DNA of 64,000 nucleotides, taken from NCBI RefSeq assembly GCF_000020785.1, contig NC_011126.1, positions 186,001 through 250,000 on the forward strand. Direction: 5' to 3'. Below, one piece after another: positions 31,283 through 36,085 of this stretch. The position numbers and the translations under genes were made by a program. The notes below the pieces were generated by a model that saw only the letters and a list, made by a program, of their open reading frames with translations, did no database searches and was not told the DNA's origin. The stretch comes from Hydrogenobaculum sp. Y04AAS1. Lineage in GTDB: Bacteria; Aquificota; Aquificia; Aquificales; Aquificaceae. Within the stretch, counting starts at the first letter, position 1; every line of letters starts with the position of its first letter.

Positions 31283-31943
31283 GGATTTTATACCAAGAAA
31301 TCTTCTAAAAGCTTTGGAAAACATAAAACATATACCTGGCTATGGTGAAAAAAACGCTTCAAGGTTTGTATACGGCTTTTTAAAGCTTGATAAAATCAAA
31401 AAAGAAGATATCGTAAAAAGCTTAGAAAATCTTTTTTCTATAACTACATGTAAAGAGTGCAACATACTTACAGATCAAGAAGTTTGTGCTATATGCTCTA
31501 ATCCAAAAAGAAGTAAAAAGTATATAGCTGTAGTAGAAGAGTCTCAAGATGCTTACAAGATAGAAAAATTGGAGCGTTTTAAAGGTGTTTATCATATTTT
31601 AGGTGGTCGTATAAGTCCACTGGAGGGTATAGCACCAGAAGATTTGAGTATAGAGCTTTTAAAAGAAAGAATAAGAAAATACAATCCGAAGGAGATAATA
31701 ATAGCCACAAATCCAAACCCGGAGGGTGAGGCTACAGCTAACTATCTTATAAAAATAATAAAAAGCTTAAACAATAAATCTGCTACAAGTATGCCACGCA
31801 CCACAAGTATGCCACGCACCACAAGTCTACCACGGTCTACTACACCGAAGATAACACGCATAGCCACCGCTATCCAGTTTGGTACGCTTATAGAGTATGT
31901 GGACGATCTATCTTTGGAAGAGAGCATAGAAAAAAGGGAATAG
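31272..31943 (+). CDS. recR: Recombination mediator RecR with repeat-derived insertion
   Basis: 223 residues from TTG 31272, longer than the usual 195-205. RecR forms a clamp with RecO/RecF for gap repair. The helix-hairpin-helix (IKHIPGYGEKNASRF), zinc ligands (CKEC, CAIC) and Toprim motifs (VVEESQDAYKIE, IIIATNPNPEGEATANYL) are intact. Between the Toprim domain and the final strands (TRIATAIQFGTLIEYVDDLSL) lie three copies of a six-residue unit, TSMPRT twice and TSLPRS once, encoded by 18-bp repeats (172-189). The stop TAG is the first three bases of a structured repeat. The TTG start is a best guess. Confidence 0.92.
   Translation: MAFEDFIPRNLLKALENIKHIPGYGEKNASRFVYGFLKLDKIKKEDIVKSLENLFSITTCKECNILTDQEVCAICSNPKRSKKYIAVVEESQDAYKIEKLERFKGVYHILGGRISPLEGIAPEDLSIELLKERIRKYNPKEIIIATNPNPEGEATANYLIKIIKSLNNKSATSMPRTTSMPRTTSLPRSTTPKITRIATAIQFGTLIEYVDDLSLEESIEKRE
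31785..31838 (+). repeat. 18-bp submodule, three units, in frame in recR
   Basis: ACAAGTATGCCACGCACC twice, then ACAAGTCTACCACGGTCT. The unit is the same 18-bp module that is repeated at 17279-17350 and occurs singly in intergenic copies (13795, 32230). Being 18 bp, it keeps the recR frame. Confidence 0.9.
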
Positions 31944-32273
31944 TGTGCCAAAGGCATTTCTCTGAGCTTTTGAGTGTCTTTGCATGTTCATTAGATCCGA
32001 AACGCGCTGATAGCGCTCTAGTGTGCCAAAGGCATTTCTCTGAGCTTTTGAGTGTCTTTGCATGTTCATTAGATCCGAAACACGCTGATAGCGCTCTAGT
32101 GTGCTTTAGCATTTTTCATAGTTTTGAGCGGCTTTGTCTGTTCTTTAGCTTTGAAACGCGCTGATAGCGCTCTAGTGTGCCGATGGGCATTTCTTACATC
32201 GTATATGCCTGTTCTTTCATCTTGCTACGACAAGTATGCCACGCAATAGTAAAATGCGGGCGCTACCGCTCTA
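31941..32273 (+). repeat. Cluster of four structured repeats between recR and pilT
   Basis: Units begin at 31941, 32019, 32097 and 32173. The first two are near-identical 78-bp tandem copies. 5' hairpins: TGCC-AAA-GGCA twice, TGCT-TT-AGCA, TGCC-GATG-GGCA. 3' hairpins: GCGCT-GAT-AGCGC, one with a first-pair mismatch, again GCGCT/AGCGC, and GCGG-CCGC. The cluster donates stop codons to recR at one end and pilT at the other. Confidence 0.9.
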
Positions 32274-33378: not shown

Positions 33379-35061
33379 TTAATCTTGTATAGATACTCTT
33401 AACACTTCTTCTAAAGATGTAATTCCTTTGTTTACTTTTATTATACCAGACTGAAACAATGTCTTCATACCTTTTTTAATAGCTATTTCTCTTATCTCTT
33501 CTGTGGTTTTCTTTTGATTTATAGCCTCTCTTATTTCATTATCTACAAACATGAGTTCTGCTATTACAGTTCTTCCTTTATAACCTAAATAGTTGCAATG
33601 TTCACAGCCTTGCTTGCTTGCTTTATATATTGTATTGGTGGTAATGCCGTAATATTCTCTTTTTTCCTTTGTGGGTTCATATGGTATTTTGCAATATGGA
33701 CACAACTTTCTAACAAGCCTTTGAGCGGATACTGCCAAAAGTGAAGATGATATGAGAAACGGTTCTATCCCCATGTCTATAAGCCTTGCTACCGTACTTG
33801 GCGCATCGTTTACATGTAGCGTTGATAGGACTAAGTGCCCAGTAAGAGATGATTTTATCGCTATTTCAGCCGTTATAGCATCTCTTATTTCACCTACAAG
33901 CATAATATCTGGGTCTTGCCTTAAAAATGACCTTAAAACCGATTCGAAAGTCCTTCCTACTTTTTCATCTATTTGGACTTGATTAAGCCCTGGTATATTT
34001 ATTTCTACCGGGTCTTCGGCAGTTACTATATTTACATCTTCTTTGTTTAAGTCTTGAAGTATTGAATAAAGGGTTGTAGTTTTCCCGCTACCTGTGGGTC
34101 CTACCACTAGTATTATCCCATAAGGTTTGCTGTAAGTTTGTTTTAGTTTTTCCACTTCATCTTCTTCAAATCCAAGCGTTTCTAATTTTAAAGCTGAAAA
34201 CTCATCAGGAAACTGCACTCTCATTACTATTTTTTCACCGAATATTGTAGGAAGTGTCGATATTCTAAGCTGAACTTTTTTATTTGATATTCTTACTTTT
34301 ATTGTCCCGTCTTGAGGCTTTCTTCTTTCCGATATATCGAGGTTTGCCAATATTTTAAACCTAGATACTAGTGGTTCTTTTATATTTGTTGGGTAAGTGT
34401 CTATTTTTTTCAGCATTCCATCTATTCTAAATCTTAGAACAATTTCTTTTTCCTGAGGCTCTATATGTATATCAGAAGCACCATCTTTTACAGCTCTATA
34501 AAGTATGGAGTCAGCCAATTTCACGATTGCACTTTCGCTTGATTGTTCTACCAACTTTTCTATATTGATATCGTATTCTTGGTTTACTTCTATATATACC
34601 TCTTCTGTGCTTAAGTCTATAGATCCAGAACTATGAAAGATATTATCTATTACACTTTTTATGTGTGACGGTGCCGCGTACCAGATTATTACATTTGTTT
34701 TTTTGGTAATGTACTTTATTTGATTTTCATCTATGTACGGCATATATGTAGCTACAATAATATTATTGTCAGACATAGAAATGGGTATTATTTTATTTTT
34801 TACTATAAAATCTTGAGGAAATAAGTTTAAAAGATTTTTATCTATTTTATCTATGTTTACTATGCTACCGTATCTATCTACAAATTTAAACATTTTTGAA
34901 TATGCGTTAAGAAGATCTTGCTCAGTTATTTTTTTAGTTTCTACAAGATAGCTTACTATGTCTATATCTAGATCTTTTAATTCTTTTAATGTATTGTCAT
35001 CTATGAGTCCTTCGTTTCGCAAAAATCTTAAAAACCTTAAATTCCTTTCTGTATCCGGCAT
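33379..35061 (-). CDS. pilB: Type IV pilus assembly ATPase PilB / GspE
   Basis: 560 residues. An N-terminal GspE/MshE domain (about 1-150), then the ATPase core with VVGPTGSGKTTTLYS, FLRQDPDIMLVGEIRD and STLHVNDAPSTVARL. A zinc motif CPYC...CEHC joins the arms. It powers pilus extension; GspE cannot be excluded but the adjacent pilT favours pili. No ribosome site is seen, and the ATG lies two bases after the reverse gyrase remnant, so it was probably translationally coupled to that gene. Confidence 0.9.
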   Translation of the reverse strand: MPDTERNLRFLRFLRNEGLIDDNTLKELKDLDIDIVSYLVETKKITEQDLLNAYSKMFKFVDRYGSIVNIDKIDKNLLNLFPQDFIVKNKIIPISMSDNNIIVATYMPYIDENQIKYITKKTNVIIWYAAPSHIKSVIDNIFHSSGSIDLSTEEVYIEVNQEYDINIEKLVEQSSESAIVKLADSILYRAVKDGASDIHIEPQEKEIVLRFRIDGMLKKIDTYPTNIKEPLVSRFKILANLDISERRKPQDGTIKVRISNKKVQLRISTLPTIFGEKIVMRVQFPDEFSALKLETLGFEEDEVEKLKQTYSKPYGIILVVGPTGSGKTTTLYSILQDLNKEDVNIVTAEDPVEINIPGLNQVQIDEKVGRTFESVLRSFLRQDPDIMLVGEIRDAITAEIAIKSSLTGHLVLSTLHVNDAPSTVARLIDMGIEPFLISSSLLAVSAQRLVRKLCPYCKIPYEPTKEKREYYGITTNTIYKASKQGCEHCNYLGYKGRTVIAELMFVDNEIREAINQKKTTEEIREIAIKKGMKTLFQSGIIKVNKGITSLEEVLRVSIQD

Positions 35062-35063
35062 AT

Positions 35064-35581
35064 TTATAAATTATAAATAAATTTAAGATAGTTATACAGT
35101 GTTTTTAGCACCTCTTTATAATCTTCTCCTTTCTCGCTTATTATATCCATTTTGTGTTCTAGTTCTCTGGTAAATTCTTCAGATACCAAATAAGAAAGCT
35201 CTTTGTTTTGCTTTAGAAAGTTATATACTTCTATGCCGAGTTTAGTAGATATAAGCTTTGATCTTTTCTCTATTAGATACTTTCTTTCTAAAAGCCTAGA
35301 AACTATGATAGAGTATGTGGATTGGTCTTCCTATTCCTTTTTCTTTCATTTCTTTAACGAGTTCTTCTTGTGTATAATGGCATTTTTTTTGTAGAAATAC
35401 TCTTCCCATAAGTTTAACTCTTTTTCTATATCGCACTACTCTTTTAAAAACCCTCTTTCAATACATCGCATACGTTTTCTTCTTTTAGACATTTTTCGCA
35501 AGGTAGACCTTTTGCAACTCTATAAGAGGATATATCACCTCCACAGTTTGGGCATAGGTTTTTAAATATAGCCTATATCAT
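35064..35581 (-). pseudogene. Reverse gyrase remnant
   Basis: ATG 35581 follows the hpt stop directly, but codon 3 is TAG. Beyond it the frame reads AIFKNLCPNCGGDISS, then VAKGLPCEKCL: the N-terminal zinc finger typical of reverse gyrase, ending at a stop near 35446. After a junction at about 35437-35443 another frame gives the C-terminal topoisomerase IA end: VRYRKRVKLMGRVFLQKK, YTQEELVKEMKEKGIGRP, then after one extra base near 35322 STYSIIVSRLLERKYLIEK and SKLISTKLGIEVYNFL, finishing at TAA 35064. About 1000 residues (helicase domains and topoisomerase core) are missing. Family recognition is from conserved motifs; I ran no search. Confidence 0.85.
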
Positions 35582-36085
35582 CTATATTTCTATCTGAGCT
35601 ATAAAGCTGAAGTTTCTTCCAAAGCCGTTGTAGTCAAGGCCGTATCCTACAACAAACTTATCTTCTATTTCAAAACCTACGTAATCTGCCTTTATACTAA
35701 CCTCTCTTCTAGAGGGCTTATCAAGGAGCACGCATATCTTAAGGCTTTTCGGATGTTTTGATAATATTAGCTCCTTTACTTTACTTAGTGTTTTGCCCGT
35801 GTCTAATATATCATCTACCAAGATTACATCTTTATCCTTTATATCAAAACTAATATCGCAAAGGATATTAAGATTTGAAGATTTATCTCCTACGTATGAG
35901 CTTACTTTCATAAAATCAACAAACACATTTTTTTGTATATGTCTTGATAAATCACTTACAAACATAAATGAACCGTTTAAAAGCCCCAATATATAAACTT
36001 CTTCGTAGTCTTTTTCTATAGTTTTTGATAATTCTATGACTCTTTTTTGTAAATCAAAGCTGTTTATAATAGGTCTTACTTTCAT
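35582..36085 (-). CDS. hpt: Hypoxanthine phosphoribosyltransferase
   Basis: 167 residues. PRPP-binding loop VILVDDILDTGKTL, GLLNGSFMFVSDL and the DYVGFEIEDKFVVGYGLDYN end are diagnostic. It salvages hypoxanthine or guanine to the nucleotide. Its TAG stop adjoins the ATG of the reverse gyrase remnant. It heads a minus-strand unit hpt-(reverse gyrase)-pilB-pilT. Confidence 0.93.
   Translation of the reverse strand: MKVRPIINSFDLQKRVIELSKTIEKDYEEVYILGLLNGSFMFVSDLSRHIQKNVFVDFMKVSSYVGDKSSNLNILCDISFDIKDKDVILVDDILDTGKTLSKVKELILSKHPKSLKICVLLDKPSRREVSIKADYVGFEIEDKFVVGYGLDYNGFGRNFSFIAQIEI

Follow-up and report, generated by a model that had tools for sequence, protein, structure and literature searches.

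Decay of the reverse gyrase gene to its two ends in Hydrogenobaculum sp. Y04AAS1

The reverse gyrase gene (rgy) of the hot-spring bacterium Hydrogenobaculum sp. Y04AAS1 is a pseudogene, of which only the two ends are left between the genes hpt and pilB. This reading follows from four observations: there is no intact rgy in the genome, intact orthologues are present at the same site in close relatives, the gene carries several independent lesions, and purifying selection on it has been lost. We consider it almost certain that the complete account holds, namely that an Aquificaceae rgy, inherited vertically, decayed on the branch of this strain and left this stretch as a non-functional remnant. 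Reverse gyrase, which overwinds DNA, is characteristic of organisms living at very high temperatures. Its gene is the usual genomic marker for hyperthermophily and serves to infer ancestral growth temperatures.

The Y04AAS1 genome is complete and consists of one closed contig of 1,559,514 bp, of which we analysed positions 186,001-250,000 (64,000 nucleotides, hereafter the window, to which coordinates refer unless indicated otherwise). The remnant lies on the minus strand at 35581-35064 and aligns to both ends of the intact rgy genes of the relatives. Its neighbours on the same strand are both intact: upstream hpt, encoding a hypoxanthine phosphoribosyltransferase-like protein (35582-36085), and downstream the gene of a pilB-type ATPase (33379-35061). 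The N-terminal part (35387-35581, minus strand) comprises the zinc finger region up to about codon 67 of the orthologous gene in the relative G003, and the C-terminal part (35064-35382, minus strand) holds the last ~108 codons of the topoisomerase domain. Both parts are matched by the NCBIfam reverse gyrase model TIGR01054, the former over profile positions 1-46 (46.8 bits), in the zinc finger that is recognised as zf_Rg (PF17915) in the reverse gyrase of an intact relative, and the latter over positions 1080-1169 (78.9 bits). A preliminary description, made from the DNA letters alone, had recognised here the two ends of a decaying reverse gyrase between hpt and pilB, and these matches bear it out. 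The C-terminal domain of topoisomerase I (TopA) belongs to the same type IA superfamily as the C-terminal piece, but in a profile comparison the piece reaches nearly double the score with reverse gyrase (82.5 bits) that it reaches with TopA (45.0 bits), and the N-terminal piece is a reverse gyrase zinc finger. The family assignment of the C-terminal piece therefore holds, and an origin from an ordinary topoisomerase I, for which a profile test had been proposed, is rejected.

Intact rgy genes are found exactly at the hpt-pilB site in three other Hydrogenobaculum genomes: strain ARK-05 (G001, 1156 aa), G003 (1171 aa) and G004 (1135 aa). All helicase and topoisomerase motifs are present in these three. 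They share the site and the ends of the remnant, whose parts are 89-92% identical at the nucleotide level to the genes of G001 and G003. They differ in being complete and under purifying selection (dN/dS of 0.13 between G001 and G003), whereas the remnant is ~996 codons short. The order hpt-rgy-pilB had been expected in Aquificales in general, but among the genomes checked it is restricted to Hydrogenobaculum: outside the genus, hpt or pilB was next to rgy at none of the reverse gyrase loci checked, and hpt was beside pilB at none of the pilB loci checked. Within the genus, G004 and G001 (L115 versus L003) share 90% identity in pilB and in the 3' end of rgy but 76% in hpt, and this difference suggests a recombination tract that ends inside the locus.

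A tree built from 58 reverse gyrases places the Hydrogenobaculum proteins, on a long stem, inside the main clade of the Aquificaceae (node SH-aLRT 96). This grouping favours vertical inheritance of rgy in the genus, and the position of the gene between hpt and pilB would then go back to the common ancestor of Y04AAS1 and its close relatives. Alternatively, the site originally had no rgy, and transfer or transposition brought the gene to the hpt/pilB junction in some members of the genus before it decayed in Y04AAS1. We regard this as unlikely, although two observations point in its direction. In G002, whose hpt is 68% identical and which diverges most among the Hydrogenobaculum genomes, hpt ends one base before pilB with no rgy between them (L126 5190-5192), and rgy adjoins hpt or pilB in no other Aquificaceae genome checked. 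The empty junction of G002 reflects either a separate, clean loss of rgy or an arrangement that preceded the arrival of rgy at the site. This genome is only 82% complete, however, so that its rgy may lie elsewhere or may have been lost, and the tree, with the rgy of the genus inside the main Aquificaceae clade, points to no outside donor. Moreover, a late arrival would alter the earlier history of the gene and not the decay itself.

Alignment to the rgy genes of the three intact relatives gave the list of lesions. The gene has been disabled by two nonsense codons, three frameshifting indels and a deletion of ~2.99 kb. In the N-terminal part there is a TAG at codon 3 (35575-35573), a loss of 6 nt that leaves the frame intact, a 1-nt deletion (-1 shift) near 35451 and a second TAG at 35438-35436, while the C-terminal part has a 2-nt deletion (-2) near 35372 and an extra A (+1) at 35323/35322. 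The nonsense codon at position 3 and the extra base near 35322 had already been noticed in the preliminary description, and its estimate of about 1000 lost residues agrees well with the ~2,988 bp, or ~996 codons, that are missing relative to G003 (codons ~68 to ~1063). Its position for the junction, near 35440, has to be corrected: the N-terminal part stays in register up to GAGTATTTCTA, and the junction lies in a run of eight A residues at 35390-35383 (minus strand), near 35386. Because both breakpoints are A-rich, with short A-run homology between them, the deletion likely arose via short homology.

The missing segment includes the complete SF2 helicase-like half, with the Walker A and DDxD motifs that are kept in G001, G003 and G004 (APTGIGKS, VDDID). 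It also takes in the Toprim domain of the type IA topoisomerase half, together with the catalytic tyrosine. In the course of events that we propose, rgy would have gained its nonsense and frameshift mutations on the Y04AAS1 branch and lost the ~2.99 kb between the two A-rich breakpoints. With the helicase half and these two elements of the topoisomerase half removed by the deletion, an active enzyme would no longer be possible.

Strain-specific changes were tallied at the alignment columns where the other three genomes agree. The remnant has accumulated 10 non-synonymous (N) and 2 synonymous (S) changes, compared with 21 N and 51 S for hpt and pilB taken together (Fisher p = 0.0006). For G001 and G003 combined, these columns of the remnant show 9 N and 10 S, and the contrast of these intact branches with the 10 N and 2 S of Y04AAS1 is suggestive (p = 0.065). 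Purifying selection on the remnant has thus been lost or relaxed, clearly so in comparison with the neighbouring genes and suggestively so in comparison with the intact rgy branches. The remnant is ~91-92% identical to the G003 gene, similar to the flanking genes, and the loss of rgy therefore occurred on the own branch of Y04AAS1 and is not old. When the 64 kb were compared with G003, almost every conserved gene of at least 100 aa proved intact on both sides, and rgy is the one long gene that is broken. One 151-aa frame of G003 is likewise without a full match in the Y04AAS1 window.

These data also bear on two other ways of reading the locus, each of which we hold to be very improbable. One is that a functional role persists in the retained ends, as a small zinc-finger or winged-helix peptide or as a leader of pilB. 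The 3' frame is indeed open over 88 codons, and identity to G003 remains at 91-92% across the remnant, but this identity does not exceed that of the flanking genes, the N-terminal piece is broken by the stop at codon 3 and by the frameshift, the C-terminal frame has no ORF of at least 50 aa from a usual start, and the strain-specific changes in the C-terminal piece amount to 8 N and 2 S. The other, that an intact reverse gyrase is really present and hidden by a sequencing or assembly error, could appeal to single-base indels at homopolymers as a typical class of error, but hardly to a clean ~3-kb deletion, two nonsense substitutions and shifts of -1, -2 and +1 in one gene with intact neighbours, an excess of amino-acid-changing substitutions and a genome closed in a single contig.

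The searches of the whole Y04AAS1 genome with PF01131 and TIGR01054, in line with a check proposed in the preliminary description, recovered no other rgy, and a second copy is therefore rejected. The earlier idea that one of two copies had been lost does not match the present state either, since there is no second copy in Y04AAS1, G001, G003 or G004. Across the phylum, a strong match to TIGR01054 was obtained in 126 of the 136 Aquificota genomes examined, and in 84 of the 88 that are of good quality (completeness of at least 90% and contamination of at most 5%). The four good genomes without a match are Y04AAS1 (G000), G092, G029 and G031, and only Y04AAS1 among them is a single contig. Loss of rgy in the Aquificota is thus rare, but not unique. 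G092 (family f3, genus g15) is 99% complete and contains TopA without a reverse gyrase match, and the reverse gyrase of its genus-mate G030 is very divergent. Unusually long reverse gyrase frames of 1424-1688 aa are found in G025, G027, G033 and G035 (L192, L193, L111); the large in-frame insert that they carry at profile position 729-730 is possibly an intein.

The remaining topoisomerases of Y04AAS1 were searched for as type IA enzymes and as gyrase A-type subunits. The only other type IA gene, at genome positions 961,672-963,141 (L116 271-2598), encodes a protein of 775 aa. This protein scores 506.6 bits with the topoisomerase 3 model versus 213.1 bits with that of bacterial TopA, and among solved structures it is best matched by those of topoisomerase III (209 bits, versus 114-128 bits for topoisomerase I). 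An assignment as TopA was rejected on these profile and structure-library matches. Because the scores stay below the curated cut-offs of the topoisomerase III models, the name Topo III-like is the safe one. The gene is intact and conserved in the genus, with a dN/dS of about 0.08-0.11. A single gyrase A-type subunit gene is present in Y04AAS1, and a second one, which would indicate topoisomerase IV, was not found. TopA above the cut-off was detected in none of the five Hydrogenobaculum genomes, compared with 107 of the 136 genomes of the phylum and, in the sample of relatives, all other Aquificaceae but one (69% complete). In the same sample TopA above the cut-off is also absent from all seven genomes of genus g12, which includes reverse gyrases with the large insert.

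It is thus probable that Y04AAS1 has a single type IA enzyme, one of the Topo III type, and that gyrase and this Topo III-like enzyme would now carry the whole of its DNA topology at 60-70 °C. According to two reviews, at least one topoisomerase I is universal among bacteria (PMC7140829; PMC10969213). Contrary to the rule that every bacterium has this enzyme, Y04AAS1 appears to live on gyrase and one Topo III-like enzyme. In the other members of the genus the absence of TopA may have been compensated by reverse gyrase.

The known Hydrogenobaculum isolates have growth optima of 60-70 °C (PMC4343020). Of the reverse gyrase carriers with known optima 89% grow best above 65 °C, and the gene is found in all hyperthermophiles (PMC6878951). 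The genus therefore seems to live at the edge where rgy is dispensable, and we infer that the enzyme had become so in a Hydrogenobaculum growing well below the temperature at which it is needed. The G+C content of the 16S rRNA gene is 54.6% in Y04AAS1 versus 55.1-55.2% in G003, and the IVYWREL fraction in the 64-kb comparison is 0.4173 versus 0.4197 (135 gains and 177 losses). Both values are unpolarised and lean weakly toward a lower temperature in Y04AAS1. Loss of rgy through adaptation to lower temperature is plausible, although weakly supported.

Decay of reverse gyrase between close strains is already known from Thermus thermophilus, in which the gene is a pseudogene in strain HB27 and intact in strain HB8 (PMC1274311). 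As in Y04AAS1, the truncated reverse gyrase of one strain has an intact counterpart at the corresponding location in a close relative, and the decay took place in a lineage living below the temperatures of hyperthermophiles. The Thermus gene, however, is located on a megaplasmid and is thought to have been acquired, whereas that of Y04AAS1 is chromosomal and groups with the reverse gyrases of its own family. Y04AAS1 is thus a new, chromosomal case. Unlike HB27, it also lacks TopA, and this is the point that it adds to the Thermus precedent. In the non-subscription literature searched, judged mostly by title and abstract, we found no paper on reverse gyrase or TopA in Hydrogenobaculum. The strain represents a natural rgy knockout in a complete genome, the gene being retained at this position in its close relatives. 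It could serve to examine the contribution that reverse gyrase makes to a bacterium living near its temperature limit.

Finally, two dispersed repeats were encountered in and around the genes discussed here. A dispersed repeat with a period of 18 bp (TGGCATACTTGTnnnnCG) lies in frame inside recR (31780-31840) and is also found at 32230, 13794 and 17332. It occurs 28 times in the Y04AAS1 genome at no more than two mismatches, versus 0 for the reversed control. The same repeat is present inside the reverse gyrase gene of G003 (near genome position 215,912) and, in a shorter form, inside that of G001. The Topo III-like gene (L116) contains an in-frame insertion (ERYQRVSELRN) that is absent or shorter in the relatives, and a longer, tandem dispersed repeat at 31940-32180 of the window is ~80% identical to it.
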